Origin: an uncultured Flavobacteriales bacterium
GTDB taxonomy: Bacteria; Bacteroidota; Bacteroidia; Flavobacteriales_G; Salibacteraceae
DNA: 64,000 bases
NCBI GenBank assembly: GCA_937899835.1
Contig: CALCCE010000291.1
Span: 1 to 64,000, forward strand
Reading direction: 5' to 3'
The notes beneath the pieces are model-generated. The model was not told the DNA's origin. It was given only the letters and a program-made list of their open reading frames with translations, and did no database searches. Positions 47,074 through 64,000 of the stretch are shown one piece after another. The translations under genes and the position numbers were made by a program. Position 1 is the stretch's first letter; each line of letters begins with the position of its first letter.

Positions 47074-47391
47074 ATGTACCAACCCTTGTATCGCCCTGCG
47101 AGCGAACAATCGCAGCGTTCCGACATCTTTGTGACCCAACGCCCCAAGCAATTGCTTTTCGATCTTTGGATTTATTGTCCCCAAAAGCAAGCCGTAAGTG
47201 TTAAGGTAGTGAGCCGCAAAGGTGATGTTTATTTTGGCTTACAGCTCGATGCTTTTCAAGGAAGCTTAGAGCGGATGCTGGACCTCACTTCACTGCCGGA
47301 AGGCATCTACATGATACAGGTTATTTTCAAGGGCAAGACCTTTTATAAACGCCTTGCGGTTCCTGCTAAAAGCAGCCTTAGAGCTTTGTAA
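47074..47391 (+). CDS. Stand-alone T9SS tail-like small protein
   Basis: 105 residues without a signal peptide. The second half looks like a Por_Secre_tail (T9SS type A) domain: VSVKVVSRKGDVYF, then ERMLDLTSLPEGIYMIQVIFKGKTFYKRLAV, matching the LPxGIYxLxV-x-G-xxxxxKxxV pattern. Such a domain normally sits at the C-terminus of a large exported protein. Here it is a gene of its own, lacks an export signal, and overlaps the 3' end of the convergent adhesin gene by 14 bases. It may be a cytoplasmic relic or a regulator. Confidence 0.62.
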   Translation: MYQPLYRPASEQSQRSDIFVTQRPKQLLFDLWIYCPQKQAVSVKVVSRKGDVYFGLQLDAFQGSLERMLDLTSLPEGIYMIQVIFKGKTFYKRLAVPAKSSLRAL

Positions 47392-49957
47392 GAGGAAGAA
47401 TAGCCCTTCGGGACCCTGCAGTTAGTTCTATCCAGTAACTCCCAGAAGATAAGTACTCTATCGAAAGGCCTTCATTTTCGGGTAAAAGCATCCCACGGCC
47501 TACTTCAACGCCCCGCAGGTCAACGATTCTCCAATGCAGGTTTTGCGCTTGATCTGATACTATTGCTACTTTTCCATAACTGGGATTGGGGAATACCCGA
47601 ATGCCTGGAATTGTTTTCCAGGAAGCAATGCCTACTGAGCTACCCACTGTATCACTAAAAGCCATTTCACAACCGTTTTGATCGGTTGCTACTCCGCTAT
47701 AGTTGCCCGGAGTTAGCAGGTTGAAAGTGGAATTAGATTGTGTACCAATGCCACTCACGGTATACGAAAAGGGGGGAGTGCCTCCACTGGCTTGTACAGT
47801 AAGGGAGCCATTGCCAGTTCCATTATCGGGAGTGGTGTTGGTTGTTACCTGAATGAGGGGTGGCTCAGGCAGCACAAAATCAAGTGTGTCGTTACAGCCT
47901 TGGGTATCTGCTACAATCACTTGGTAGTTTCCTCCCGATAAATTGAGGAAAAAATCATTGGCTTGAAAAGGACTGCCGTTCAAGCTATAACTGAATGGAC
48001 CATTGCTACCGGAAGCCTGTATGGCAATGGCTCCGGTACTGTCTCCGTGGCAATCGATGGCTTGTTGGGTGATGTTGTCAATTTCAGGACTTCCCAGGTT
48101 GGGCAATTGAAGCAAAGAGTCGTAGGTACAGCCCAAAGCATCTTCCACCAAAATAAACTGACTACCCGAATTGAGACCGGTAAAAGTATTGTTGGTACTA
48201 AGGCTGACCCCCGTTGCACCGTACAGATAGGGCGGCACTCCTCCCGCGGCTTGTACGACTACATCGTGTAGATCGCTGCACGCGGTGCTGGTAATGTTTG
48301 CAGTAGTGGACATTGACGGAAAAACCCACAATTCGAAGCTTTCGATTTTCACACATCCACTACCGTTGGAGATGGTAACGCTCACTTCTTGGGTTCCCGA
48401 TTGATTGAAAAAAGCACCGGTGGCGAATCCAAAAGGCGAGTTCACCTGCGACATGGGCTCCCACAAAATACTGTAGGTGCCGGGAGAGGTAGGTACTGCC
48501 GATAGCTGCGCAGTGTCTCCTAAACACAGGGAATCGATGTCTTGGCTGGTCATGTAAGTGAAGTTACCGCCCACATTGATGGTAACTGTATCCAGGTTGT
48601 CAGTTGGAAGATTACTACTAACCAGGTACGTGGTAGTGGTGGCAGGAGTAGCGATGGGGTTGGCGCAAGGGTTGCAACTGAAATTCGTACCGATCAAGAT
48701 CGGATCGCCAGAAATTACCGACCAATTGAAAACGGTACCTCCTTGCGTGGCTAAAATGACGGTATCGCCAGTGCACACCGTGGGATCGGCAATAGTGTAA
48801 GTGCCATCGTTTACTTTGATACGAACCACTTTGTTGATTCTACTGATCACCGGGCATGGATTGTCTTCTAACTGAAAATTCAAATAGTACCATCCAGCGG
48901 GCAACGTAGAGGCCCACCAGTTGACGGAAACGGTAAGTGGATTTTGGCCACTCACGGTAAAACTGGCTCCCGGCAAAATGGAGTTGAGGTTGGTAGTGAG
49001 TGCCAATACATCGCCCGAATTGGCATCGTCGAACGTTAGGTCGAACGCCAAAGTATCGCCAGTGAGCAATTCTATCGACATGGAATCCAAGAGGGTATTT
49101 CCTGGACCTACATTGGTGACTCCACCGTTGATCAGTTGGGGAGATTGATTGCCACAAAAGTTTAAAGTGATGGGGAAATCACGTTTTACCTGGCCCAACC
49201 AAACCCCGTTGCGGTATTCGTCTACCGTAATCACGATTACAAAACTACCTCCTTGAGTAGTGTTGAAATCGAGTTGGCCCGTGTTGGGATTGATGGTGAG
49301 GGTAGGCATCGGTGCCGGGCCAGTAAAACCTGTGTTGTAGGGGGCAAGGCCGTTGATGCTTCCCAAAGCAGTATCCAGAGAAAACACCAGACTATCACCG
49401 TCGGGGTCACTGGCTGCCACATTGAAGGATTGAGGCTGGCTGGAACATAAATTGGGAATGGGATTGCCGTGGAACACCGGGCTTTGATTGCAAACACCGG
49501 CTCCGGTATTGATTTGTGCATCGAAAACCAAGGCTGGAGTACCTGATAGGTTGAGGGTAGTTGCCCGGCAACATTCTAAGAAAGCCACCCGCCATTGACT
49601 GCAAATCGGGGTAAGCACTGCAATGCCAGTGTAGGTATGCACCGTAAACGCGGGAAAAGTCATGCAATCTACAGGAATCGTAGAACAGAGCTGTGCGATA
49701 GTATCTCCGTTGACATTGGCAGTGCTAACGGTTTGGGTGAAAGCGGCTCCACAGGAGCTGGTCCATTCCAAGGTTCGGGTAGTGGCAGGAAGGGGAGCGC
49801 TACAATCCCTTGTGAACTGCAGGGTGATCAAAAAAGAATCCTGTCCAACGCATTCGTAAGCAATGTTGCCCCCAGGTATGTGAACGGCTTTCACTGGTGC
49901 GAAGCTGAACAGGCCTATCAGCAAGGTCAACAGCAACAGTAAAGGATAAATTTTCAT
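47378..49957 (-). CDS. Large T9SS-exported adhesin with SprB-like repeats
   Basis: 859 residues from ATG 49957 (MKIYPLLLLLTLLIGLF, signal peptide to VKA). N-terminal beta-rich region with several Cys (GQDSFLITLQFTRDCSAP; VAFLECCRA), a cadherin-like part (AASDPDGDSLVFSLD), PKD-like segments (CTGDTVILATQGGTVFNWS; DSLCLGDTAQLSA), then three SprB-like repeats ~600-770 (QAAGGVPPYLYG, QASGSNGPFSYSLNG, QASGGTPPFSYTVSG). The C-terminal T9SS type A tail (~785-859) starts IRVFPNPSYGKVAI and ends RRAILPLTKL. Role: surface-anchored or secreted adhesin (family knowledge plus inference). Convergent, 14-base overlap with the small tail-like gene. Confidence 0.9.
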   Translation of the reverse strand: MKIYPLLLLLTLLIGLFSFAPVKAVHIPGGNIAYECVGQDSFLITLQFTRDCSAPLPATTRTLEWTSSCGAAFTQTVSTANVNGDTIAQLCSTIPVDCMTFPAFTVHTYTGIAVLTPICSQWRVAFLECCRATTLNLSGTPALVFDAQINTGAGVCNQSPVFHGNPIPNLCSSQPQSFNVAASDPDGDSLVFSLDTALGSINGLAPYNTGFTGPAPMPTLTINPNTGQLDFNTTQGGSFVIVITVDEYRNGVWLGQVKRDFPITLNFCGNQSPQLINGGVTNVGPGNTLLDSMSIELLTGDTLAFDLTFDDANSGDVLALTTNLNSILPGASFTVSGQNPLTVSVNWWASTLPAGWYYLNFQLEDNPCPVISRINKVVRIKVNDGTYTIADPTVCTGDTVILATQGGTVFNWSVISGDPILIGTNFSCNPCANPIATPATTTTYLVSSNLPTDNLDTVTINVGGNFTYMTSQDIDSLCLGDTAQLSAVPTSPGTYSILWEPMSQVNSPFGFATGAFFNQSGTQEVSVTISNGSGCVKIESFELWVFPSMSTTANITSTACSDLHDVVVQAAGGVPPYLYGATGVSLSTNNTFTGLNSGSQFILVEDALGCTYDSLLQLPNLGSPEIDNITQQAIDCHGDSTGAIAIQASGSNGPFSYSLNGSPFQANDFFLNLSGGNYQVIVADTQGCNDTLDFVLPEPPLIQVTTNTTPDNGTGNGSLTVQASGGTPPFSYTVSGIGTQSNSTFNLLTPGNYSGVATDQNGCEMAFSDTVGSSVGIASWKTIPGIRVFPNPSYGKVAIVSDQAQNLHWRIVDLRGVEVGRGMLLPENEGLSIEYLSSGSYWIELTAGSRRAILPLTKL

Positions 49958-50109
49958 AGAAAAAGCGTTAGAACTCCGAAGTGATCTTTTAACAGAAACG
50001 GACAGGCAATAGTTGTACAAATGGTTAAGGTATTGAAAATGAAAATTTTGAACCTCAATTTGCAGGAAAATCCTTCTTTGGTTCGGTTAAACCCAATGAT
50101 CTTTTCTGT

Positions 50110-51729: not shown

Positions 51730-52203
51730 TCAGTTGTCGAGGTACAATTCGTACTCTGTTTTTTTGCGTTTGAAACCCAACACACATACTGCGCAGCCTT
51801 CTTTCCCGTCAAGAAAACTCACTTCCACATAATACTGCCCGGAGGCCTTACACGTGTAGTCCACTACGTCATATACTTTACCAGTAGATTGACTGTAGTT
51901 GGTCATGATCATCACGTTTTGCGTGTTGTAGATTTTAAAAACCAATTGACCATCAAATTCTTGTGCATTGGCAGAAATGAAACGGTATTTCATTCCCTTG
52001 TTCAAGATCACCGAATACTTGTGGCTGTAGGGTAATTTTCCTTTTTTCGATTTCTTCATCCGGACCTTAATGTCCTTGATGTAGGTGAAATCGTCCAGCA
52101 ACTCGGCAGACACACCGATAAGCTGATCGTTACATTGAGCTGCTGCATAGCGCGTTGGCAGCCAAAGTAACACTGCTATCAAGAGCAATAACCTAACTTT
52201 CAT
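51730..52203 (-). CDS. Small secreted protein at the end of the ABC-transporter operon
   Basis: 157 residues. Signal peptide ~1-22 (VRLLLLIAVLLWLP to YAAAQ), then a beta-rich mature domain with Cys at AQCNDQ, YTCKASG and CAVCVLGF, and a basic tail. The YTCKASGQYYVEVSFLDG segment looks like a C2- or PPC-like beta-sandwich edge. No family recognised; conserved small proteins of this type accompany lipoproteins in Bacteroidota (inference). Three bases separate it from the lipoprotein gene; a strong terminator follows. Confidence 0.68.
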   Translation of the reverse strand: MKVRLLLLIAVLLWLPTRYAAAQCNDQLIGVSAELLDDFTYIKDIKVRMKKSKKGKLPYSHKYSVILNKGMKYRFISANAQEFDGQLVFKIYNTQNVMIMTNYSQSTGKVYDVVDYTCKASGQYYVEVSFLDGKEGCAVCVLGFKRKKTEYELYLDN

Positions 52204-52206
52204 TCC

Positions 52207-53106
52207 TTAAATAATTTGCGACCGAATCTCATTCAAGAGATTGGTAATGTTGTTGAACGTTTCGTCTGTCATTTCAATGGTGCTGGTGGAATTGTCTTCC
52301 AATACCAGCACCCCGTCAATTTCAACGGGCTCTGGTTCTGCGTAGGTGTAGGTGATGGTCACTTGATCGAACTGCGCTTTGAGGTTGTTAAGCTTTGCGA
52401 TTAGTTTGGTCATGTTCTTGTCTTGCTCGTAAGCCGAAAGAATCAGAATCAGATTATCCAGCGTTACTTTCTGTTCACCGATTCGCTCTACGATGTCTTG
52501 ATTGCCACTTTGTTTGGCCACCTGCGATGCAATGTACACGCCTTCTAACCAGGTTCCGGTAAGAATTAGTGCGCTAATGTTGCCACGATTGTTTTGCCGC
52601 AGGTAATCGTCCATCTGGTTAAAACCAGTGGTAGTGATGTACAACAACGAATCGATATTTTGACTGGAAGAAGCCAGACGCTTTAAAATGTTGAAATCGA
52701 AGAATTGCCCTACTTTCAGGTCGTCGGCGAGTCCTTTTACAGCGCCTATGTAACTGATGCTGGAAACCGTTTTCTCATAGATGTTCATGTAGCCGAGATC
52801 TGCACCATAAACACCCAAATTCAACGCCTTTTTGTGGTTGTTGACATAGTTTTTAGAGTTTTCGGTGTTGTTGAGCATTTTGTCAGAAAACTCGGCTCCG
52901 GAGGATCGGATCATTTCAGTCATCTCCAGTGGAGAAGGGATAGAGTAAATCAAATCTTCAATACTCTCCTTAGAAACTTTGGGTTTTACCTCGGCTTCTT
53001 TCTTGAAGTCTTCGCCGAGTTCCTCGTCAATACTTTTCTGGTCGCCTGAAGAGCATGCATAGCCCATCATTATAATGGCCATCAGGTATAGTATGTGTCT
53101 TTTCAT
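52207..53106 (-). CDS. Lipoprotein of unknown function
   Basis: 299 residues from ATG 53106; ATG 53109 directly before it is an equal choice. Lipobox MGYAC followed by SSGDQKSIDEELGEDF. The body is almost wholly helical, with regularly spaced hydrophobic residues and NNHKKALNLGVYGADLGYMNIYEKT. No catalytic motif. It lies 102 bases downstream of the ABC transporter gene with no terminator between, so it is likely a component or partner of that system on the periplasmic side (inference). Confidence 0.72.
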   Translation of the reverse strand: MKRHILYLMAIIMMGYACSSGDQKSIDEELGEDFKKEAEVKPKVSKESIEDLIYSIPSPLEMTEMIRSSGAEFSDKMLNNTENSKNYVNNHKKALNLGVYGADLGYMNIYEKTVSSISYIGAVKGLADDLKVGQFFDFNILKRLASSSQNIDSLLYITTTGFNQMDDYLRQNNRGNISALILTGTWLEGVYIASQVAKQSGNQDIVERIGEQKVTLDNLILILSAYEQDKNMTKLIAKLNNLKAQFDQVTITYTYAEPEPVEIDGVLVLEDNSTSTIEMTDETFNNITNLLNEIRSQII

Positions 53107-53208
53107 CATTTTTTGGTGTTGTAGATTGATAATCTTCTTTTCCAAAAGGGGGTAGGGTCCCTCCTACGTGAATTGTCTCAATAGGTTCTCCTTTTTTTGG
53201 AAATCCGG

Positions 53209-56200
53209 TTATTTTCGAATTCCCGAAAATAGTCTTTCTCCGAAAGCTAAAGCCTTGCTCAACAGATCAAAATACACTGATACGAACAGCAAAAGGGTCA
53301 TTACCCAGATCACGGAAGCATTAAAATACAGCGTGCTGAACAACTGCCCGAAAAAGGGCTTGGTAGGGGCATAGAAATGCGCCCTGAAGTTGATCGGATT
53401 TCCCACCTCTGGATCGAGGTAAATGGGATCGATTTGTTGCACCAGACGTCCCTCGTATTCAAAAACCGGGTGCTTGGTGAAAGTCTTTTTTAACAGTTCT
53501 TCTAAGTATTCGTTGTAATGATCGTTGTAGAGCGAAAGGTAGTTGGCTTGTTTTTCAGGCGAATCCGTCATCCGGTTGATCATCTCGTCTTTCCGAAGGT
53601 TCACACTGTTAAACAAAATCGTGTAATACGTTTTCAACTCCATCAAAAAATCGCTGGTAGCCTCAATCACGTCAGCATCAATACTTTCTGGTGTGAGTTG
53701 ATCTGCCGCATCAAATTCTACCGAACTCACCCGCTCAAGGGTGATCTTGATTTCGGTGTACAACAGATTGAGATCATGCTCAAAATCGGGCTTTAGTGAG
53801 TCGACGGGTTGGTTAACGTAGGCTTCTACATTAGAAAGCAGGCTTTCTAATTCTGGGATATACACCACCTGTTTGTAATCGCAAAAGCTCTCTTTCTTTT
53901 TTAGCGAGTAGAACAACTGTTCGTAATCGTTGTGTACGAACTGGTGTACCACCAGGGCTTCATAGGCCCAGCGCGAAGGCATAAATTCTGCGATGTAAGG
54001 CACTTGGTTGCCAATACCACCACCGATGCTTCGGTTGAGCTTTTCGAAACTAAACATGGCTCCACCCAAAATCATTTGAGGAATGATAAGCAATGGAATC
54101 AGAATGTATATGGTGACCGCAGAGTTGAAGGAGGCCGAAATGTTGAGCCCCAATACGTTGGCAAAACAGGAAACACTAAACAAAATGAGCCAATAGGGAA
54201 ACAGCATGCCTTCTACGCCCAAAATGAGGTTGCCAATAAGCACGAATGTGAAGGACTGCAATGCCGAGAGGGAGAACAGAATGCCCAGCTTGGAGAACAG
54301 GTAAGACATTCGACTGAGGTTTAGAAATGCCTCCCGTTTCAAAATTTTTCGGTCGCGGTATATTTCTTCAGCACTTACGGTAAGGCCGATGAAAAGGGCC
54401 ACTACAATGCTTATGAAGATGTATGCAGGAATGTTTTCGTTGACCCGAAAGAGGTAGTCGCTCGAATTTGGATTTTCGATGTAGCGAATGATGAAACTGA
54501 GGAAAAAAGCCAGAGCCGGAGCCTCTAATAAATTAATCAGCAAATACTGCCGGTTGCTCAGTTTGGAAAGGATGTCGCGCGAGAAAAACAACCACATTTG
54601 CTTCAGGCGGTTGGGTATGCGCAGCGTAGAAGGAGGCGTTTCCTTCACCGTTTCCACGGTTTCTTCCTCAAAATGCTCGGTGTAAAAGTCGCGCCATTTC
54701 TTCGGAGCCACTTTCCGCTTGTCGGTTAGCTGCCCAAATTCATCCACTACCCGAGCCTCAACAATGTTGAACAATACCTCAGGGTTCACGTTTCCGCAGT
54801 GCGGACATTCCCCTTCCTGGCTGTTCACCTGATTGTCGATGGTTTTGAAATAAATCACCGCTTCTACCGGGTTACCATAATAAATCTGGTACCCTCCTGT
54901 ATCGAGCAACAACACCTTGTCAAACATCTTGTACAAGTCTGACGAAGGTTGGTGAATGACCACAAAAATGAGTTTCCCCTTGAGGGTCAACTCCCGAAGC
55001 AAATCGAGGACGTTTTCAGAATCGCGGGAGGAAAGCCCGGAGGTGGGTTCGTCCAAGAAAAGAATGGAAGGCTCCCGAATGAGTTCCAGACCAATGTTGA
55101 GACGTTTGCGTTGGCCCCCACTAATGGTTTTGTCGAGCGGGTTGCCCACCCGTAAATCTTTGGTAGCCGACAAGCCGAGGTTGTCGATTACCTTTATCAC
55201 CAGCCCGTCAATTTCCTCCTCACTGAGGTCTCTAAAACAAAGCTTGGCGTTGTAATAAACGTTTTGATAAACCGTAAGTTCCTCAATCAGCAGGTCGTCT
55301 TGCGGAACGTAACCGATTACCCCTTTCAGCTGATCGTTTTCCCGGTGCAGGTCAATACCATTAATGGTTACCGATCCATTGGATGGCTTGTCGATGCCCG
55401 AAAGCACATTCAGCAAAGTAGTTTTGCCTGCCCCACTGGCACCCATGATGCCAATGAGCGAACCCGGGCCTTCTGCGATGGTTACTCCCCGAACCCCCAA
55501 ATTGCCTTTGGCAAAACGGTATTCAATGTCTTTTGCTTCAAACGATAGTCGGGTAGTAGAACTATCCGTCAAATACCGCGAAGCAACATCACTGTAGTAA
55601 ATCGGTTTGTCGAGCGGAGGTTTTACGGTACTCCCGTTGGCAAACAGGTAGATGCGCTGCTTGTTGAGCACAAAACCGTTGAGCTTTACATCATGGCCAC
55701 CGGTGTAGCGCAAGAAGTAGAGGTTCACACTGGGAATCCGCAATACAAGAATATTTCCCGCCAGATGATCTGAAGAAATTACTTTAGGATGGTTCTCGTA
55801 TTTTTCGGGATGCCCGGTAATGAGCAGTACTTCGTTGATGTTGTTTTCCTGTGGCTGATCGAACCGAACGAACGTTTCCAGGAGGTCGTATTCCTCTTTG
55901 GTTACGTTGAAAACATTGGCCGCCGTATCGATGATGGCAATGCGCTGCTCCGAAAAATTGCGGTCGGCATTTACCAGCTCAAACAAGCGCATCAAAACAA
56001 CGACCTTTTGTTGCTTCGTGAGCGTTTTGTTGATCTTCTTGCAAATGCCTAAGATGCGAACCGAATCTTTTACCGAAGTCAGTTTCTTTTCCGGTTCGTC
56101 GGAAGCCGCGTCCGATTTACGCTTGCGCTTTTTCTCTTCCGCAAACTTTTCAAAAAGAGCCAGGTATTCCTCTACCAGGTCTTCGCTGATCTGCTGGCGC

Positions 56201-56304
56201 AGAAAAACCCGGACATATTCCCGCTTTGCATCCGTTACACCATCATCCTGTTTGGAAATGATGGCAAACAGCTGCATCAGGGCTTTAAGGATTTCTTCAC
56301 TCAT
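53209..56304 (-). CDS. ABCG-like half-transporter with N-terminal TerB-like and FHA-like regions
   Basis: 1031 residues. N-terminal helical TerB-like region ~1-150 split by a charged linker (KKRKRKSDAASDEPEKK), then an FHA-like beta domain ~175-245 (LAGNILVLRIPSVNLYFL, VKLNGFVLNKQRIYLF). ABC ATPase ~253-480: Walker A GASGAGKT (288-295), signature SGGQ (395-398), Walker B ILFLDEP (414-420), H-loop in VVIHQPSSD. A CPHCGNVNPE zinc-ribbon-like segment near 503. ABC2-type membrane domain ~570-790 with six helices, a large helical soluble insert ~800-990, and one more hydrophobic segment near the C-terminus. The domain set is unusual. It lies behind the Sia-like genes with its own promoter match and before a lipoprotein and a secreted protein. 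Confidence 0.9.
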   Translation of the reverse strand: MSEEILKALMQLFAIISKQDDGVTDAKREYVRVFLRQQISEDLVEEYLALFEKFAEEKKRKRKSDAASDEPEKKLTSVKDSVRILGICKKINKTLTKQQKVVVLMRLFELVNADRNFSEQRIAIIDTAANVFNVTKEEYDLLETFVRFDQPQENNINEVLLITGHPEKYENHPKVISSDHLAGNILVLRIPSVNLYFLRYTGGHDVKLNGFVLNKQRIYLFANGSTVKPPLDKPIYYSDVASRYLTDSSTTRLSFEAKDIEYRFAKGNLGVRGVTIAEGPGSLIGIMGASGAGKTTLLNVLSGIDKPSNGSVTINGIDLHRENDQLKGVIGYVPQDDLLIEELTVYQNVYYNAKLCFRDLSEEEIDGLVIKVIDNLGLSATKDLRVGNPLDKTISGGQRKRLNIGLELIREPSILFLDEPTSGLSSRDSENVLDLLRELTLKGKLIFVVIHQPSSDLYKMFDKVLLLDTGGYQIYYGNPVEAVIYFKTIDNQVNSQEGECPHCGNVNPEVLFNIVEARVVDEFGQLTDKRKVAPKKWRDFYTEHFEEETVETVKETPPSTLRIPNRLKQMWLFFSRDILSKLSNRQYLLINLLEAPALAFFLSFIIRYIENPNSSDYLFRVNENIPAYIFISIVVALFIGLTVSAEEIYRDRKILKREAFLNLSRMSYLFSKLGILFSLSALQSFTFVLIGNLILGVEGMLFPYWLILFSVSCFANVLGLNISASFNSAVTIYILIPLLIIPQMILGGAMFSFEKLNRSIGGGIGNQVPYIAEFMPSRWAYEALVVHQFVHNDYEQLFYSLKKKESFCDYKQVVYIPELESLLSNVEAYVNQPVDSLKPDFEHDLNLLYTEIKITLERVSSVEFDAADQLTPESIDADVIEATSDFLMELKTYYTILFNSVNLRKDEMINRMTDSPEKQANYLSLYNDHYNEYLEELLKKTFTKHPVFEYEGRLVQQIDPIYLDPEVGNPINFRAHFYAPTKPFFGQLFSTLYFNASVIWVMTLLLFVSVYFDLLSKALAFGERLFSGIRK

Positions 56305-56340
56305 TTTTTGCGGATCGGTGTATCAGCCAATTAAGTCGGC

Positions 56341-56348
56341 CAAATATA
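56341..56348 (-). promoter_or_regulatory. Candidate -7 box for the ABC-transporter operon
   Basis: TATATTTG on the minus strand matches TAnnTTTG, 36 bases before the ATG at 56304. Supports a separate transcript start downstream of the SiaC-like gene. Confidence 0.45.
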
Positions 56349-56444
56349 TGCAAAGCACCATAGTGCAGGTATGCATAAAACACCGGTAGTATAGTATGAA
56401 TTACAGGAATAGAGTAAGCGCTACTTTTTTGCATTCGAAGGCTC

Positions 56445-56471
56445 GACCGTGCCTTTTGTACAGGCGCGGTC
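56445..56471. repeat. 9-bp inverted repeat in the SiaC-ABC spacer
   Basis: GACCGTGCC / GGCGCGGTC, nine pairs including one G-T, with a 9-base loop. No T run on either side, so not a classical terminator. It lies between the SiaC-like stop and the promoter match of the ABC gene; it may stabilise the 3' end of the sia-like mRNA or act as an operator. Confidence 0.4.
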
Positions 56472-56509
56472 AAACCCTGTTCAGCATTTCAATATTCAGG
56501 TAAACCGAA

Positions 56510-56887
56510 TTAGTAAGGCATCATTTCAAACGGGATGTCAACAATGTCGGCGTATTCTTCTCCCGCCTCTTCCATGTCTTCATCGTCTTCCTGATAGTGC
56601 CAGTTGATGGTCACCGCAGAATTGCCTTCTTCGGAGATTTCTTCCAGTTTCATCAAAATGTCGAGAATACATTTAGAAGAAGCGGTGTTGAAGTAGGTAA
56701 GTTTAAAATCCACCACGGTGGTCTCATTCGGATTTAAGGAATAAGAGTCGAACCAATCCAAAATCGGATTGTAGAAGGTGGAAACATCTTCGGGGAGGGA
56801 TTTCCCTGAAAAGTCAAATGTGTTGGAGCTGGCGTCAAGCGTAACCGCTGGAGTTTCGTCCGTAGCCTCAATCGAAATAATTTCCAT
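56510..56887 (-). CDS. SiaC-family regulatory phosphoprotein (DUF1987)
   Basis: 125 residues. The SiaC signature KLTYFNTASSKCILDIL places Thr T68 exactly where P. aeruginosa SiaC is phosphorylated by SiaB. Acidic C-terminal region (EEISEEGNSA, EDDEDMEEAGEEYAD). In the known system unphosphorylated SiaC binds and activates the diguanylate cyclase SiaD; no such enzyme is in this window. Eleven bases separate it from the SiaB-type gene. Confidence 0.92.
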   Translation of the reverse strand: MEIISIEATDETPAVTLDASSNTFDFSGKSLPEDVSTFYNPILDWFDSYSLNPNETTVVDFKLTYFNTASSKCILDILMKLEEISEEGNSAVTINWHYQEDDEDMEEAGEEYADIVDIPFEMMPY

Positions 56888-56898
56888 TGTGCTGGGGT

Positions 56899-57480
56899 TT
56901 AGGATTTGGAGATTTTGGTTTTGAGGATAAAAAATGAAGATACGTCATTCACCGGTTCAAAGTGGTAAATGAGTTTATTGCCAGTCTTTTTGGCAATGTC
57001 GATGAAACCGAGCCCGGCTCCACCTTTGTCCGAAAGGCGGCTTTGTTTGATTTGTTCCTTGTAGAGCTTCTTCAATTCGTCTCTATCGAGGTGATTTACT
57101 CTTTCTAAGAGATGGGTGAGCCCTTCGATGCGTTCGTTGGATACAATGTTGCCCGTAGTTACGATGTATGCATTTTCGTTGTAGCCTACCACAAAAATAC
57201 CTGATCCTGGGATGTCGGGTTCGCCGGTAACCGGATCGTCGGCATGTTTGCAGATGTTTTGAAGGCATTCTACCATCACGTGGTAAACCCGTCGTTTGGT
57301 GGTGAGGCTTTCATTGGTTTCGTCGAGGTTTTTCTCCGCAAGCGAAACAAATGCTTTCGTAATGGATTGGTTGACCTCTCCGTTGTATACCAACTGCAAT
57401 TTCTGTTGCTCCATGGTCTCGTGGAACTTGTAGATAAACTGCATGTAGTTGGTACCAACCTTGATTTCTGTAGCTGACAT
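56899..57480 (-). CDS. SiaB-family protein kinase (DUF6272)
   Basis: 193 residues. GHKL-type ATPase features: N box-like ECLQNICKHADDP, and a glycine-rich GGAGLGFIDIAKKTGNKL near the C-terminus. Expected to phosphorylate the downstream SiaC-like protein at T68, opposing the PP2C phosphatase encoded just upstream. It starts 46 bases after the phosphatase stop. Confidence 0.9.
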   Translation of the reverse strand: MSATEIKVGTNYMQFIYKFHETMEQQKLQLVYNGEVNQSITKAFVSLAEKNLDETNESLTTKRRVYHVMVECLQNICKHADDPVTGEPDIPGSGIFVVGYNENAYIVTTGNIVSNERIEGLTHLLERVNHLDRDELKKLYKEQIKQSRLSDKGGAGLGFIDIAKKTGNKLIYHFEPVNDVSSFFILKTKISKS

Positions 57481-57526
57481 AGATTGATTTATTGGTCTGA
57501 ATAGAGGAGGTTTTATCTATTGATAG

Positions 57527-60148
57527 TTAAAATCGGATACCGATCATAAGTACGTCATCGAGTTGTTTTACATCGCCTTTCCAATCTTTAAACTCTTGTG
57601 CAAAAAGATCGTGCATGGCGCCCATAGGCATATCTTGGTGCTCTAAAAGCTTTTCACGAATCCGTTTTGGACCGTATTTCATCTTTTCGGGCCCACCGAA
57701 TTGATCGGGTAAACCATCGGAAAAGAAATAAATGCCATCGCCTTCTTGGTAAGTGAAAAGGTGGTTGGTAAAATTGCTACGTTTTTTATACTGAGTTCCA
57801 CCAATCGGGAATCGGTCGCCTTTGTATTGAATCAACTCACCACCAGTGATGTGGTAAAGCGGGCGGTGGGCTCCTGAAAAGCTCACTTCGCGCGTTTTTT
57901 TGTTGACCCGTACAATCGCTACGTCCATACCATCGGCCGTTTTCACGTTGTCTTCATGGTCTTGCTTCAGGGTTTTTACTACTCCCTGGTGCATGAGGTC
58001 GAGCGTTTCGCCCGCATTGTAGACCCGATCGTGGCCCAAGATTTCATTGAGCACCGAAAACCCAATCAGAGAAAGCATTGCACCGGGAACCCCGTGGCCA
58101 GTGCAGTCTACTGCGGCCAAATAAAGCAAGTCACCTTTCTCGTAATAATATGGGAAATCACCACTGACCACATCGCGTGGTTCGTAGAAGATAAACGATT
58201 TTGGAAATTCTTTTTGAATGTAATTCGTATCGGGCACAATCGCTTTTTGGAGGCGTTGTGCATAATTGATACTGTCGGTAATCTTCTTGTTGGTTTCCCG
58301 AATCAGTACTTCTTGTTTTTTCCTTTCCGTAATGTCGTGAGCAACTACCAATACGGTTTCCAAATTTTCGTCTGCACCAAATTCCGGAATCGCGGTGGTG
58401 AGCATCACCCGGTCGCCTTTACGACTCGGAAAATCCACTTCTTGTGCAACCAGCTTGCCCGTTTCCTGAGTTTTCTGCAAAATCGATTTCCAGGCATCTA
58501 CGATCTTGGGGTTGAGGTCCATTTGTTCGTAGGTCTTGCCGGTAAACAAGGTTTTGCGCAAGCCAGTGTATTCGTTGATCCTTGGGTTAACGTATAGAAA
58601 TTCTCCCCCGAGGTTAAAGCGCATGATGATATCCTGGCTATTTTCTGATAGCGCCTGCATCTTACCCCGCATGATTTGCTCTTGCTCCGCTTTCCTGCGT
58701 TCAGTGATGTCGCGAGAGTTGAGCACTACTCCATTAATGGCAGGATCACTCAACAGGTTTCGGGCACTGGCCTCTAACCAAAGGCGATCGCCAGTTTTAG
58801 TTTGATAGGAATACTGAATGGTTGGAATTTGAGTAGGATGATCCAATACATCAGCAAACATCTTTCTCAACCTCGACTGGCCCTTTTCATCGGCCTTGTG
58901 AAAATCGTTTTGTCCGACCAGTTCCTCCGGGTCGTAGCCCAAAATGTTTGAAATAGAAGGGCTTTCGTATTTCACCCGCGCATCCTCATCGTAAATGGCA
59001 ATGATTTCAGAAGCATTTTCCAGGAGGGCGTGTTGGCGCAGTTGGCTGTTGCGCACCTCCATAATCTGTTCTTCCAGCCGGTTGTTGCTCTGCTCGATCT
59101 CTTCCTGCTTGGCTTGCATTTCCACCGCATTTTGCTCCAACAGTGATTGCTGATCCTGCAGCTCCCGGGTCATCGTCTGCGATTCTTCCAGCAGCGTGGC
59201 AGTTCGTTCGGTGGTTTTCAAATTGTAAATAGTACGCGCAATGATGGTGGCCAGTTCTTCTACAAACTCTATTTCAAGATCGGTAAAGGCATCAAAACCA
59301 GCTAACTCGATGGCGCCTTGAAGCATTTCTTCCGAAACCAGAGGCACAATCAAAATTGCTCCTGGTTTTCGGTCACCCAGCAGGCCAGATGTAATACTTA
59401 CATAGCTTTCTGGCACTTCGGTTCGGTGAATGGTATTTTGCTCGATGGCCGCTTCTCCCACCAAGCCGTGTCCTAAGCGGAAAGATCCATTGAGGTATTT
59501 TTTACGATTGTAGGCATAGCTGGCTTTCATTTGCAGCCATGTGACACCCTGGTCGTCATCTTCTGTGAGGTAGATCGCACCTTGCACTGCTTTCACATAA
59601 TCCACCAATTGAATAATCACCAATTCGGCCAATTGGTCCACATTACTTTGCTCACGTAGCAATGTGGCTATCTGGTCACGACCTACCGCAATCCAGCTTT
59701 TGTTAGAATCTTGTTGCTTGTTGTAGAGCAGCTTTTCGCGCATGTCTAAAAGTGCCAATCCAAGACTATCGTTGCGATCGCTGGTTTGGTATTGTGCATC
59801 GAAATCTCCGTTTCCAATTTTTTCGGCAAATAGGGCCAGTTTTGAAACGTTTTCCGATTGGTGTTTCACCAAGGCTTCCATGTGGCGCTGATGCATGCGC
59901 ATTTGCATCGATACAAGGTAGGCAACAGAACCAAAAAGTAACGGTGCAAGGTCGATGAGGTAATGGATGGGTGCTTCGGTATGGATATATTTTACATTGG
60001 TGAAGGAGAAGGGGAAAAAGGTGAGCTCCTTCATGTAAAAGTCAATGCCCCAGGCAATGAGCACAAAAACAATCCCTGCAACAAGGCCCCAAAGGCCCAT
60101 TTTGTTGCTATTGGTCAGTACAGTATCAGTTTTCGCTTTTTCGTTCAT
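57527..60148 (-). CDS. Membrane GAF/PAS/PP2C (SpoIIE) phosphatase, SiaA-like
   Basis: 873 residues. Two membrane helices (~17-38, ~64-82), a HAMP-like linker (~88-140), a GAF domain ~160-315, a long coiled coil ~315-375, two PAS domains (~375-490 and ~500-615; ITERRKAEQEQ and ITERKKQEVLI linkers), and a SpoIIE-type PP2C domain ~621-873. Metal-binding Asp residues are in place: D664 (VSGDF), D681 (AAVDCTGHGVPGAM), D811 (FFSDGLPDQ), D865 (LDDVLMIGI). Predicted to dephosphorylate the SiaC-like protein in response to a sensed signal. More domains than SiaA of P. aeruginosa, so probably other input signals. Overlaps the GAF gene by four bases. Confidence 0.93.
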   Translation of the reverse strand: MNEKAKTDTVLTNSNKMGLWGLVAGIVFVLIAWGIDFYMKELTFFPFSFTNVKYIHTEAPIHYLIDLAPLLFGSVAYLVSMQMRMHQRHMEALVKHQSENVSKLALFAEKIGNGDFDAQYQTSDRNDSLGLALLDMREKLLYNKQQDSNKSWIAVGRDQIATLLREQSNVDQLAELVIIQLVDYVKAVQGAIYLTEDDDQGVTWLQMKASYAYNRKKYLNGSFRLGHGLVGEAAIEQNTIHRTEVPESYVSITSGLLGDRKPGAILIVPLVSEEMLQGAIELAGFDAFTDLEIEFVEELATIIARTIYNLKTTERTATLLEESQTMTRELQDQQSLLEQNAVEMQAKQEEIEQSNNRLEEQIMEVRNSQLRQHALLENASEIIAIYDEDARVKYESPSISNILGYDPEELVGQNDFHKADEKGQSRLRKMFADVLDHPTQIPTIQYSYQTKTGDRLWLEASARNLLSDPAINGVVLNSRDITERRKAEQEQIMRGKMQALSENSQDIIMRFNLGGEFLYVNPRINEYTGLRKTLFTGKTYEQMDLNPKIVDAWKSILQKTQETGKLVAQEVDFPSRKGDRVMLTTAIPEFGADENLETVLVVAHDITERKKQEVLIRETNKKITDSINYAQRLQKAIVPDTNYIQKEFPKSFIFYEPRDVVSGDFPYYYEKGDLLYLAAVDCTGHGVPGAMLSLIGFSVLNEILGHDRVYNAGETLDLMHQGVVKTLKQDHEDNVKTADGMDVAIVRVNKKTREVSFSGAHRPLYHITGGELIQYKGDRFPIGGTQYKKRSNFTNHLFTYQEGDGIYFFSDGLPDQFGGPEKMKYGPKRIREKLLEHQDMPMGAMHDLFAQEFKDWKGDVKQLDDVLMIGIRF

Positions 60149-61044
60149 GGTGCGGTGGTCGGGTTAGGCTCGCTCACCGGCGAAGCAATTGAAAAACGAT
60201 CTTTAACTTCTGGGTAAAGGCTTTTGCCTATGTGATCGGCCACCGTTTGCAGGGCCTCTAACTCAAAAGTGTTGAGCTCACCAAAAAGCGCCAACTCAAT
60301 CACACCACATACTTCCTGTTGATGAACGATTGGTTGAAAGACCAGGAAGTTGGGAACGGCTGATCCAAGCCCAGAAAAGATTTGAAGGTAATTTTCAGGT
60401 ATTTCTTCCAGCACAAGGCGTACTTGTTTGCGGGCTGTTTCACCTACAAAACCACTCCCATAGCTCACCTCCTGAGTTTGTCCATCTTCTACGATGTAGG
60501 CATAGGTGGCAGCAAGTGCCAATTGTTCTTTTTGGCTACGCAGGTAAAAAATTCCCTGTCCGGCATTGAAACCGTTTGCCAACTCCCGTAGCCAGCTTTC
60601 CGACCGCAAGGTCATGGTATTACCTTTGGGTTGAAACTGAAGCAACTTCTCCTTTTTTTGAGTGGCCTGCGCCTGTTGTTCTTTTTGTAACTTCTTTAAC
60701 CTTTCCTGCTCTTTGCGTTCTTGCTCAGTGGCTTCCTGATTGGCATCTTCAGCCGCTTTTTCAATTTTTTTGATGTCCGCTTCAGCCAGCTCTACAACGG
60801 GTACCTTAGCAAAATTGCGGAGGGTCATGGCAGCCAGCGCCAGGAAGAGCGCAGCCAAACAACCCGCCACCATCCAGGTAATGCCTTGGAGTTGATCGGA
60901 GAGCTTAGCATCCTGTGTGACGTATTCGTCGAAGTTGCTGGCGAGGTACTGGTTAAATCCAGCGAGGTTGCTGAATACCAACCACGCCAAAACCACCGTC
61001 AGCAACAGGAAAAAGACAGACAACCCGGTGTAAAACTGTTTCAT
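60145..61044 (-). CDS. Membrane GAF-domain protein with coiled coil
   Basis: 299 residues. Two membrane helices (~7-27, ~55-75), then a strongly charged coiled coil ~88-135 rich in Glu, Gln and Lys (KKIEKAAEDANQEATEQERK), and a GAF domain ~150-285. No kinase or phosphatase part. It overlaps the CheB gene before it and the PP2C gene after it by four bases each, so all three are translationally coupled. Likely a sensor or scaffold that pairs with the phosphatase, whose own N-terminus has the same two-helix/GAF layout (inference). Confidence 0.82.
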   Translation of the reverse strand: MKQFYTGLSVFFLLLTVVLAWLVFSNLAGFNQYLASNFDEYVTQDAKLSDQLQGITWMVAGCLAALFLALAAMTLRNFAKVPVVELAEADIKKIEKAAEDANQEATEQERKEQERLKKLQKEQQAQATQKKEKLLQFQPKGNTMTLRSESWLRELANGFNAGQGIFYLRSQKEQLALAATYAYIVEDGQTQEVSYGSGFVGETARKQVRLVLEEIPENYLQIFSGLGSAVPNFLVFQPIVHQQEVCGVIELALFGELNTFELEALQTVADHIGKSLYPEVKDRFSIASPVSEPNPTTAP

Positions 61045-61619
61045 CGGTTGATCAGGTTCAGAAAATCAATGATTTTTTGGGAGGAATAAATGTGATTGGG
61101 CTTATGCGACTCAATGGCTGCAGTAGGCATGGTAGCCACCTTGCTTTCCATAGGATCTTGCACTAAGGTGGTGCCGCCGTAAGCTTTTACTTTTCGAATG
61201 CCGTGCGCCCCATCTTTATTAGCTCCCGATAAAATGACCCCAAGTAATTTCTGCTTGTAAGCAAAACCACAAGATTCAAAGGTGATGTCAATCGAGGGAC
61301 GCGAATAAGAAACCATCTCCTCCGTCGACAAGGAGAAGTGATTGCCCAATTCTATAGACAGGTGGTAGTTGGCCGGAGCTAAATAAGCAAATCCGGGTTT
61401 AATAGTTTGTTTGTCAAAAGGTTCCACCACCTTGATGTTCGATTTTATAGACAATGCTTCTACGAATCCACTTCGAACATGTTTCAACCGATGAAGGCAC
61501 AAAATCAAGGGGATACGGTAGGGCGTTTTTAGTGACGATAAAACCTTGGTTATCACAGGGAAACTGCCTGCAGAGCCACCAATAACTATAGCTTTATATG
61601 GAGTAGGTCGGGAAATCAT
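61041..61619 (-). CDS. CheB-type methylesterase domain protein without receiver
   Basis: 192 residues, only the catalytic domain. Catalytic triad: S16 (GGSAGSF), H43 (LCLHRLKH), D136 (SGANKDGAHG). It lacks the N-terminal receiver domain that controls enteric CheB. CheB removes methyl esters from glutamates of chemoreceptors, but no receptor gene is visible. One base separates it from the upstream CheR; it overlaps the GAF gene by four bases. Confidence 0.93.
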   Translation of the reverse strand: MISRPTPYKAIVIGGSAGSFPVITKVLSSLKTPYRIPLILCLHRLKHVRSGFVEALSIKSNIKVVEPFDKQTIKPGFAYLAPANYHLSIELGNHFSLSTEEMVSYSRPSIDITFESCGFAYKQKLLGVILSGANKDGAHGIRKVKAYGGTTLVQDPMESKVATMPTAAIESHKPNHIYSSQKIIDFLNLINR

Positions 61620-61620
61620 G

Positions 61621-62487
61621 CTATACCCTTGCCTGGTAAATTTTGTTGTCGTTAGAAATGGTCTTGAACTTGTGCGATACCGAACACCAAATGAGTGATT
61701 CTTTTGAACCCACGGCTAAAAAACCATATTTGAAAAGGCTGGAATAAAACAGCTTGCTCACCTGGTCTTGCAACACTTTGTCGAAATAGATCATTACGTT
61801 GCGGCACAGTACCAGATCGAACTTTGAGAAAACTTCCCCGCCCACCAGGTTGAAATGCCTAAACTTGACATTGGCCAACAACTCAGGGTTCATTCGAATG
61901 CTGCCGTTCTCAATTTTGTAATAATCTGATAGTTCTTTTTTACCTCCGAAGATGCGGTAGTTATTGTCGTACAATTTGAATAACCGTTCGGGGTAATGGC
62001 CACGGGCTGCAGTTTTGATTACTGTTTCGTTGATGTCGGTAGCCGTAATCTTTACCCGGTCCAATAACCCGGCTTCTGCTAATGTAATGGCCATGGAGTA
62101 AACCTCTTCGCCTGTGGAGCAGCCGGCATGCCAGATGTGAATATTGCGATGTTGCGCCAGGCTGGGCAATACCGAGTCGCGGATTTCTTGCCAGAATTCC
62201 GGGTCGCGAAAGAGCTCGGTGGTATTCACCGTCACTTCCTCAATAAATTCAGCGGTAAACTGTGCATCCGTCCGAAGGCGGTTTACCAATTCCTGAACAC
62301 TCTTGAAAGGGTAAATTTCCAAAACACGGTAGACCCGTCGTTGGAAAGAGGAGGCAGCATAATGACTAAAGTCAAAATCGGCAACCTCTTTAATGATTTT
62401 GATGATATAGTTCAATTCATCAAAGCCGAGCCGGATATCCGGTCGGTTGCGTTGTGTATTCCAAACTCCCTGGTTTTGTTCGGGCAT
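61621..62487 (-). CDS. CheR-type methyltransferase, copy 2
   Basis: 288 residues. CheR N-terminal helical domain ~20-80 and SAM-dependent catalytic domain: ITVNTTE-like EEVTVNTTELFRDPEFW, SAM-binding WHAGCSTGEEVYSMAI, ITATDINETVI, LVLCRNVMIYFDK. No TPR extension. Methylates glutamate side chains in the known systems. Second of two tandem CheR genes, clearly diverged from the other; 60-base gap between them. Confidence 0.93.
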   Translation of the reverse strand: MPEQNQGVWNTQRNRPDIRLGFDELNYIIKIIKEVADFDFSHYAASSFQRRVYRVLEIYPFKSVQELVNRLRTDAQFTAEFIEEVTVNTTELFRDPEFWQEIRDSVLPSLAQHRNIHIWHAGCSTGEEVYSMAITLAEAGLLDRVKITATDINETVIKTAARGHYPERLFKLYDNNYRIFGGKKELSDYYKIENGSIRMNPELLANVKFRHFNLVGGEVFSKFDLVLCRNVMIYFDKVLQDQVSKLFYSSLFKYGFLAVGSKESLIWCSVSHKFKTISNDNKIYQARV

Positions 62488-62547
62488 GTGTGTCTCAGCA
62501 GTTGATTGGGAAATGTTTGGGTGCGGTTGAATTCACAAACCTGATAA

Positions 62548-63393
62548 TTATTGGCTGGTTTTACGATAAATATTTTCACGAAAGTTTCCTTTCGCAAATT
62601 GTGCTTTTACCAAGGTGCCGTCCAAAGACTCCATGGTGCCGATGGCCAGGTAGCTTCCCCGAGCCAAACTACTTGAAAAAGTGCTGAGGACCCGGTTTTG
62701 CAGGTCTTTGTTAAAATAGATCATCACATTGCGGCAAAGCACCAAATCAAATCCTCCAATACTACCTTCCCGGGCTAGATCGTGTTCTTGAAAGGTTACC
62801 GGGCGCAGAAGCCTGGGATCAATGCGCATCGTATTGTCTTCGCGTTTGAAGTAATGCGTAAGGGACGAATTGCCCAAAAAGCTGCTGTAGTTTTTTTGGT
62901 TAAGTTCCATTTTCTTGGCATCAATCAGGCCCGATTGGGCCACTTTCAATACGTCTGAATTGATGTCGGTTGCCGTGATGCGCACCTTGTCTAACATGCC
63001 TGCTTCGGACAGCATAATGAGCATGGTGTATACCTCCTCTCCGGAGGAACAGCCAGCGTGCCAAATTTTAATGCGGTAACGTTTGTTCAGCTCCGGCAAC
63101 AATTTGTCGCGCATTTCGCGCCAAAAAGAGCTGTCGCGAAACATCTCAGTGACATTAACCGTGATCTCTTTCAGAAAAAAGTTGAAGAATACCGGGTCTT
63201 TGATCATGCGCTCAATCAGGACGGAGACCGAGGTGATTTTTTGCAGGCGCATGAACCGCTCTAACCTTCTGCGGAAGGAGGAAAGAGCATAGTTGCTAAA
63301 GTCGAACCCGTAGGATTCCTGAACGGCTCGGCTGATTCTTCTGACTTCAGAAACACCGATTGTCAATTCGTTTGTTGACAAACTACCTTCCAT
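62548..63393 (-). CDS. CheR-type methyltransferase, copy 1
   Basis: 281 residues, same architecture as copy 2: FRRRLERFMRLQKI in the N-terminal domain, EITVNVTEMFRDSSFW, IWHAGCSSGEEVYTML, ITATDINSDVL, LVLCRNVMIYFNK, and a C-terminal YLAIGTMESLDGT. Preceded by a palindrome at 63417-63433 and a 78-base spacer. Two CheR copies beside one CheB are unusual and suggest two methylation substrates. Confidence 0.93.
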   Translation of the reverse strand: MEGSLSTNELTIGVSEVRRISRAVQESYGFDFSNYALSSFRRRLERFMRLQKITSVSVLIERMIKDPVFFNFFLKEITVNVTEMFRDSSFWREMRDKLLPELNKRYRIKIWHAGCSSGEEVYTMLIMLSEAGMLDKVRITATDINSDVLKVAQSGLIDAKKMELNQKNYSSFLGNSSLTHYFKREDNTMRIDPRLLRPVTFQEHDLAREGSIGGFDLVLCRNVMIYFNKDLQNRVLSTFSSSLARGSYLAIGTMESLDGTLVKAQFAKGNFRENIYRKTSQ

Positions 63394-63416
63394 ATTTGAA
63401 CTGGATTAAATGCTTT

Positions 63417-63433
63417 TCCAGGTAATACCTGGA
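63417..63433. promoter_or_regulatory. 17-base perfect palindrome upstream of the CheR genes
   Basis: TCCAGGTA-A-TACCTGGA, eight perfect pairs around one base, 24 bases before the ATG of CheR copy 1. Size and position fit an operator for a dimeric regulator. Confidence 0.4.
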
Positions 63434-63471
63434 GGAGAACAAGCGTAGGAGTAAGAAAAAGTAGTGTGTGC

Positions 63472-63867
63472 TTAACTTTTGGCCAACCAACTGGCTGCCT
63501 CGTCCACATTGTCGAAGTACTTGTCGTCTACGGGTGAAACCTCGTTGGCTTCTTCCATAATATCGTCTACTGCCAATTGGGAAAAAACATCTTTTGGAAC
63601 GATAAGCGCAATCTTGTTGTAGCCCAAGGCCAAAGCTTGTGGCAACCATTCTTCAATGACCCATTTTTGATCCTCTGGTGCTATTGGGCCTAAGTTGGAT
63701 GAATTGGAAAGAATCTTGGTGTATCCTTTTTCTTTCATCAGACCCATCGTTTGGTTCATTCCATTGCGAAACTCCTCACTAGTAGCAAAACGCTTCCATT
63801 CAACAACACTACAGCCAATAGTATCGTCTCCGCTAACTTGTAGGTATTCAGAATTAAAATAGGTCAT
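63472..63867 (-). CDS. STAS-like protein of the Che/Sia cluster
   Basis: 131 residues, alpha/beta like SpoIIAA/STAS proteins: TKILSNSSNLGPIAPED in the central strand-loop, NKIALIVPKDVF, and the closing segment KYFDNVDEAASWLAKS. The latter resembles the end of the protein at 41389-41823. No clear phospho-Ser can be fixed. Its place between a coiled-coil gene and the CheR genes suggests a role in the same signalling unit. Confidence 0.68.
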   Translation of the reverse strand: MTYFNSEYLQVSGDDTIGCSVVEWKRFATSEEFRNGMNQTMGLMKEKGYTKILSNSSNLGPIAPEDQKWVIEEWLPQALALGYNKIALIVPKDVFSQLAVDDIMEEANEVSPVDDKYFDNVDEAASWLAKS

Positions 63868-63887
63868 GGGAGGTAAGGTTTGTTGGT

Positions 63888-64000
63888 TTAGTTCTCAGAG
63901 AGCTGCTGGGCTTCCAACTCAGTAATTCTTGATTTCAGTTGCTTTTCTTTTTCCTTGCTTTTGGAAATGAACTGCTCCATGATTTTCTTCTGCGCATTGA
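63888..64000 (-). CDS. C-terminal end of a coiled-coil protein (runs off right edge)
   Basis: A minus-strand frame open to the window edge, ending TAA at 63888-63890. The visible 36 residues are a charged coiled coil (QKKIMEQFISKSKEKEKQL, then RITELEAQQLSEN). Twenty bases separate its stop from the STAS-like ATG, so both are probably in one operon. It could be the tail of a sensor kinase, hybrid protein or receptor; this end carries no domain that decides. Confidence 0.6.
   Translation of the reverse strand, partial: NAQKKIMEQFISKSKEKEKQLKSRITELEAQQLSEN

Follow-up and report, generated by a model that had tools for sequence, protein, structure and literature searches.

A SiaABC-type switch with CheR/CheB enzymes and an ABC exporter as its probable output in Bacteroidota

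We analysed a window of 64,000 nucleotides (the whole stretch of DNA considered here) of a contig of 89,963 bp from an uncultured Flavobacteriales bacterium. A cluster of 11 genes occupies positions 51730-63867 on the minus strand. The genes, their place, strand and order had been proposed in an earlier note from the sequence alone, and all were borne out by coordinates and family searches. That note missed the start of the operon, which lies beyond the window: the first gene encodes a sensor of which only the 3' end (C-terminus) is inside, at 63888..64000 on the minus strand. An aldehyde dehydrogenase gene stands upstream of this first gene. In the order of the operon, the features are:

63888-66074 (-), in window coordinates (L001:13889-16075): TM-GAF-PAS sensor, 728 aa, operon gene 1
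63472..63867 (-): STAS-like protein, 131 aa, with a SpoIIAA-like match below cut-off
62548..63393 (-): CheR methyltransferase 1, 281 aa, by family search
61621..62487 (-): CheR methyltransferase 2, 288 aa, by family search
61041..61619 (-): CheB methylesterase domain alone, lacking a receiver domain, 192 aa, by family search
60145..61044 (-): membrane-anchored GAF protein, 299 aa, by family search
57527..60148 (-): SiaA-like TM-GAF-PAS-PAS-SpoIIE/PP2C phosphatase, 873 aa, catalytic Asp residues intact
56899..57480 (-): SiaB-family protein kinase (DUF6272), 193 aa, by family search
56510..56887 (-): SiaC phosphoprotein (DUF1987), 125 aa, with T68 in YFNTASSK
53209..56304 (-): ABCG-type transporter, 1031 aa, by family search and predicted structure
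52207..53145 (-): lipoprotein, conserved alongside the transporter
51730..52203 (-): secreted protein of no known family, conserved alongside the transporter

Most of these genes are as tightly spaced as first described (gaps of -4 to 78 bp), the exception being the 205 bp between siaC and the transporter gene, which is larger than the earlier note implied. Scans of the operon for terminators and promoters gave results at chance level, so the operon limits are those set by gene spacing alone. We found no Rfam RNA in the region. Next to the operon, a gene on the same strand (window 47378-50020) encodes a secreted protein of repeat type, 880 aa long, whose C-terminus resembles a sorting tail.

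The active sites of the switch components and T68 of SiaC are intact. SiaC matches PF09345 at 143 bits (cut-off 24.5), and its residue 68 is a threonine that aligns with T68 of Pseudomonas aeruginosa SiaC (6kko) and is invariant across 27 homologues, confirming that the site is conserved as first proposed. SiaB matches the DUF6272/SiaB_fam_kinase model NF038262 at 172 bits (cut-off 85) and keeps its ATP-binding residues (E71, N75, H79 and GGAGLG, conserved in 88 sequences). Family searches identified in the phosphatase a SpoIIE/PP2C domain together with a GAF and two PAS domains, and its metal-binding aspartates (D659, D664, D681, D811 and D864/D865) are present in 100% of 81 sequences. By homology, SiaB would phosphorylate SiaC at T68 and the PP2C protein would dephosphorylate it (PMC7647112, PMC8457831). 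Variants of these components occur in related genomes: a SiaB-SiaC fusion protein of 308 aa in one genome (L103, ORF at 8039), an ORF of 380 aa that we read as a tandem double-SiaB kinase (L118 at 5348; L072 has an ORF of equal length at 7715), and expanded SiaC paralogues in two genomes (G044 and G041, 12-15 matches per genome), both of which lack GGDEF.

The co-occurrence of these genes across Bacteroidota, which the earlier note proposed to search for, was found in a sample of 60 genomes, in a search with CheB and in named genomes. The CheB search covered 395 genomes of the class and separated 27 close matches (at least 170 bits) from a remainder scoring at most 153; the loci inspected around the matches include L071 and L072. 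SiaB and/or SiaC adjoin 17 of the 27 close matches, and among 16 lower-scoring loci inspected they are neighbours only at L135 and L144. These two loci (family f45) carry a CheR-CheB-x-PP2C-SiaB-SiaC-SiaB-SiaC operon with a second CheB lineage and no transporter. When named genomes were searched with the N-terminus of the transporter, 520 relatives were retrieved. The best 80, a set biased toward operon-type members in which L116 and L222 are one locus, had SiaC directly upstream in 77 cases, SiaB in 76, PP2C in 70, CheB in 58, the lipoprotein in 70 and the secreted protein in 69. The order CheR-CheB-GAF-PP2C-SiaB-SiaC-ABC-lipoprotein-secreted recurs in named Bacteroidota isolates. Cultured carriers include Plebeiobacterium sediminum, Natronoflexus pectinivorans and Breznakibacter xylanolyticus, the last of which has 21 MCP-bearing matches. 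In Carboxylicivirga (L172, L190, L196, L211) the CheR/CheB/GAF/PP2C block is missing at the locus and SiaB-SiaC-ABC-lipoprotein-secreted is kept, which identifies these five genes as the core; the same five genes are kept at L188, another locus devoid of CheR/CheB.

The association between SiaC and the transporter extends beyond this operon. In the 60 sampled genomes we counted 12 pairs (11 genomes, 10 families) in which siaC and a transporter gene are at most about 220 bp apart, where 0.14 would be expected. The transporter is present in 51 of the 60 genomes, i.e., in 43 of the 44 that have SiaC versus eight of the 16 that do not (p=4e-5). The paired genes are encoded on the same strand in some cases and convergently in others, and the genome of the window has both arrangements (same strand on C291, convergent on C95). 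Since the two arrangements map to separate regions of the SiaC tree, siaC and the transporter gene probably became neighbours on more than one occasion. The convergent locus of this genome (L068, G000:C95:14000-33999) contains another SiaB-SiaC pair next to a second transporter gene and the lipoprotein gene that accompanies it, and a 277-aa lipoprotein-like gene precedes its siaB; a similar gene is found in L070.

In three genomes, two of one family (G081 and G153) and one of another (G254), a domain of the type found at the N-terminus of the transporter (TerB plus an FHA fold) is fused to a SiaC domain in a protein of 367-377 aa (L120:12025-13149, L122:6140-7273, L228:5859-6962). The SiaC domain retains the NT(T/S)SSK site, and in all three cases the fusion gene separates siaC from the transporter gene. 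In profile-profile comparisons against the N-termini of the transporter, the three proteins taken together scored E=2.5e-13 and the third by itself 5e-5. A class-wide search with the fusion protein matched mostly plain SiaC and added a single fusion, that of G254; two further candidates, in G088 and G111, turned out not to be fusions. Of all the sequence evidence, these proteins argue most strongly for SiaC acting together with the TerB-FHA domain, and they make the transporter the likely output of SiaC. The stand-alone TerB-FHA-SiaC proteins may themselves be subunits associating with the transporter.

Could the genes simply be co-regulated, with the target of SiaC elsewhere and the transporter, lipoprotein and secreted protein forming a co-transcribed second output of the same signal? 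The trio is indeed widespread without SiaC (many copies, L081-L087), and many SiaB-SiaC pairs are distant from any transporter gene (L088-L106). Together with the eight SiaC-negative genomes that encode a transporter, such copies indicate that the transporter family does not require SiaC. Yet, co-transcription does not account for siaBC and transporter genes that are convergent in several families, nor for SiaC being joined three times to the transporter's own type of N-terminal domain. We therefore regard co-regulation alone as unlikely, and retain the transporter as the probable output.

The domains of the transporter suggest how SiaC may act on it. The protein comprises a TerB domain (1-147), which the earlier note did not report beside the FHA-like domain, an FHA fold (150-245), an ATPase (279-422), an ABC-2 membrane domain (from 569), a long insert and a last TM segment. 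The succession of ABC_tran (2.3e-30) and ABC2_membrane (1e-18) in one chain makes it ABCG-type, its best NCBIfam match (TIGR00955) being below the cut-off of that model. We modelled the N-terminus (247 aa; 62 sequences) with AlphaFold2 (pLDDT 89). The model has a TerB-type helical domain (PG1108, 2h5n, Z 8.8; COG3793, 2ou3, Z 7.8), and residues 150-245 are predicted to adopt an FHA fold: their matches form a long list of FHA chains (VIA-align Z 6.3-7.6, rmsd mostly 2-4 A), and given these modest Z values the assignment relies on the list being almost entirely FHA. The lipoprotein is predicted to be largely helical, with a minor beta portion, and its model had no meaningful match in the PDB (E>=0.26). 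No report of TerB+FHA ABC transporters in Bacteroidetes was found in the open-licence literature.

An FHA fold raises the question of whether the transporter binds phospho-T68 of SiaC as a classical phosphothreonine reader, as the earlier note had supposed. Many FHA chains match the predicted fold with Z about 7, and there is a precedent, Rv1747/PknF (PMC3908365, PMC5549992), for an FHA-containing ABC transporter controlled by a Ser/Thr kinase. However, the Gly-Arg and Ser-x-x-His (N) motifs that bind phosphothreonine are absent from 25 full-length and 62 N-terminal homologues, in a register judged from sequence alignment and not from superposed coordinates, and Pfam FHA matches none of the 62 N-termini. 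A profile comparison with yeast Rad53 FHA1 aligned only NG...L..G.I, with low probability. Furthermore, phosphorylation of SiaC in P. aeruginosa abolishes its binding rather than creating it (PMC8457831). The FHA fold thus stands as a prediction; lacking the canonical motifs, it leaves the phosphothreonine reader unsupported, and we consider this mode of binding quite improbable.

The CheR and CheB enzymes of the operon keep their catalytic residues: S16, H43 and D136 of CheB are present in 100% of 81 sequences, and both CheR copies of the window keep the catalytic motifs. This CheB is the only match of the genome at E<=1e-20. We found neither the MCP signalling domain (PF00015) nor a CheW/CheA domain (PF01584) in the genome of the window, and MCP are absent in 18 of the 22 genomes carrying this type of CheB. 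In a genome devoid of MCP, CheR and CheB need another substrate. The 728-aa sensor has glutamate pairs at an exact spacing of seven residues, in the heptads EEMRAQEEEMRQNMEELQATQEE and EEMKAQEEEMRMNLEE, and its helix EEMRQNMEELQATQEE is a candidate methylation stretch. Seven residues is the spacing of the methylation sites in Escherichia coli Tsr and the register of MCP methylation helices. The residues flanking the pairs fit the MCP consensus only partly.

Such pairs are frequent near CheB. Among 2455 ORFs of 160 loci, 91 carry three pairs at this spacing and 77 of these are within three genes of CheB, shuffling yields an expectation of 0.28 among 60 carriers, and with a relaxed pattern 56 of 58 loci with CheB and PP2C have pairs in the sensor or the phosphatase, all these figures being inflated by common descent. 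Several of the other 14 carriers belong to the same type of operon or to a protein with a CheR match. The strict triple is absent at some CheB loci (L071, L108, L112) and from the homologous coil of the phosphatase of the window. We saw no significant reciprocal pattern in which pairs occupy the phosphatase where a separate sensor has none. In four loci (L148, L149, L166, L207) the operon is closely followed by a gene for a protein of 1123-1242 aa that matches CheR and contains a coil with heptads of the TNEELQSTNEEL type, again associating glutamate pairs with CheR.

CheR and CheB thus probably act upstream of the SiaC switch. The earlier note had proposed that the output of SiaC lies elsewhere than in a cyclase, perhaps in the transporter or in the methylation enzymes. 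The fusions favour the transporter, and the glutamate pairs run against an output to the methylation enzymes, in which phosphorylation would control methylation. SiaC and CheR/CheB do share an operon, but the candidates for methylation are sensor and phosphatase proteins, no fusion of SiaC with CheR or CheB was seen, and the five core genes persist at the Carboxylicivirga loci and at L188, which have no CheR/CheB. We find an output of SiaC to these enzymes very improbable.

The absence of a diguanylate cyclase, first noted within the window, holds for the whole genome. We detected the positive controls but no GGDEF domain, and a SiaD-type cyclase was looked for beside the window and elsewhere in the genome without success. 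GGDEF is present in only two of the 60 sampled genomes, SiaC in 44. Among the 22 genomes with the CheB of this operon, GGDEF was found in one. In the genomes that have both domains, no listed GGDEF match shares a contig with a listed SiaC match. A cyclase that is divergent or unassembled could have been missed in an assembly that is 98% complete and in 307 contigs, but the same gap would have to recur in 58 of 60 relatives and 21 of 22 operon genomes, which makes this explanation hardly credible.

We consider it fairly probable that the operon encodes a SiaABC partner switch driven by membrane sensors, with an ABC exporter and not a diguanylate cyclase as its output. The GAF/PAS sensor proteins of the inner membrane would determine how active the PP2C phosphatase is. 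CheR and CheB may add and remove methyl esters on the glutamate pairs in the coiled coil of the sensor (of the phosphatase in related operons), and the methylation would therefore provide adaptation or gain control in the absence of MCP. The phosphatase would oppose SiaB on Thr68 of SiaC, by homology with the reaction demonstrated in P. aeruginosa. As the gene adjacency and the fusions suggest, SiaC in one phosphorylation state would dock on the TerB and FHA-fold domain and switch the ATPase or the export activity of the transporter. By analogy with SiaD, this is expected to be the unphosphorylated form, the more natural expectation since phosphorylation of T68 breaks the contact between SiaC and SiaD (PMC8457831). 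The lipoprotein and the secreted protein may be periplasmic or outer-membrane partners of the transporter, or its cargo.

The closest known system is SiaA/SiaB/SiaC/SiaD of P. aeruginosa (PMC7647112, PMC8457831), with which the operon shares PP2C, SiaB and the T68 of SiaC, in contiguous genes with intact active sites. It differs from SiaABCD by the lack of SiaD/GGDEF, the link of SiaC to the N-terminal domain of an ABC exporter, the GAF/PAS sensing by the phosphatase, and the presence of CheR/CheB. The HptB-HsbR-HsbA-HsbD pathway of P. aeruginosa (PMC5085249, PMC6482189) also pairs a PP2C-type regulator with a STAS-fold phosphoprotein acting on an effector; its output is a cyclase or sigma-factor control, with no transporter known. 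Rv1747/PknF of Mycobacterium tuberculosis (PMC3908365, PMC5549992) is likewise an ABC exporter with cytoplasmic FHA under Ser/Thr phosphorylation control, but there the Ser/Thr kinase is a distinct protein (PknF), the operon has two genes, the FHA domains are canonical, and neither SiaC nor TerB is involved. Finally, MCP adaptation resembles this operon in its two enzymes, CheR and CheB, and in a coiled coil where glutamate pairs recur at seven-residue intervals. Here, in contrast, the MCP signalling domain, CheW and CheA are lacking, CheB has no receiver domain, and the candidate methyl acceptors are GAF/PAS sensors or the PP2C phosphatase.

The SiaC family is abundant in genomes that lack a c-di-GMP cyclase. 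A structural study of 2021 (PMC8457831) had already suggested, in general terms, that proteins of the DUF1987 family modulate those encoded next to them. In the open-licence literature, where we found one paper that names DUF1987/DUF6272, there was no report of the transporter as target of SiaC, or of CheR/CheB as input. Our results point to a concrete target in a domain of the transporter, and to a substrate that CheR/CheB might use in place of an MCP. They suggest that a switch tied to a transporter and run by chemotaxis-type methylation enzymes is an undescribed signalling route. We give about even chances to its fullest form, in which glutamate methylation of the chemotaxis type tunes a Ser/Thr switch without a chemoreceptor, SiaC directly gates the exporter through the TerB-FHA-fold domain, and the arrangement is widespread in Bacteroidota. 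If true, these bacteria would combine chemotactic adaptation with the SiaABC switch, and control export directly, with no second messenger.
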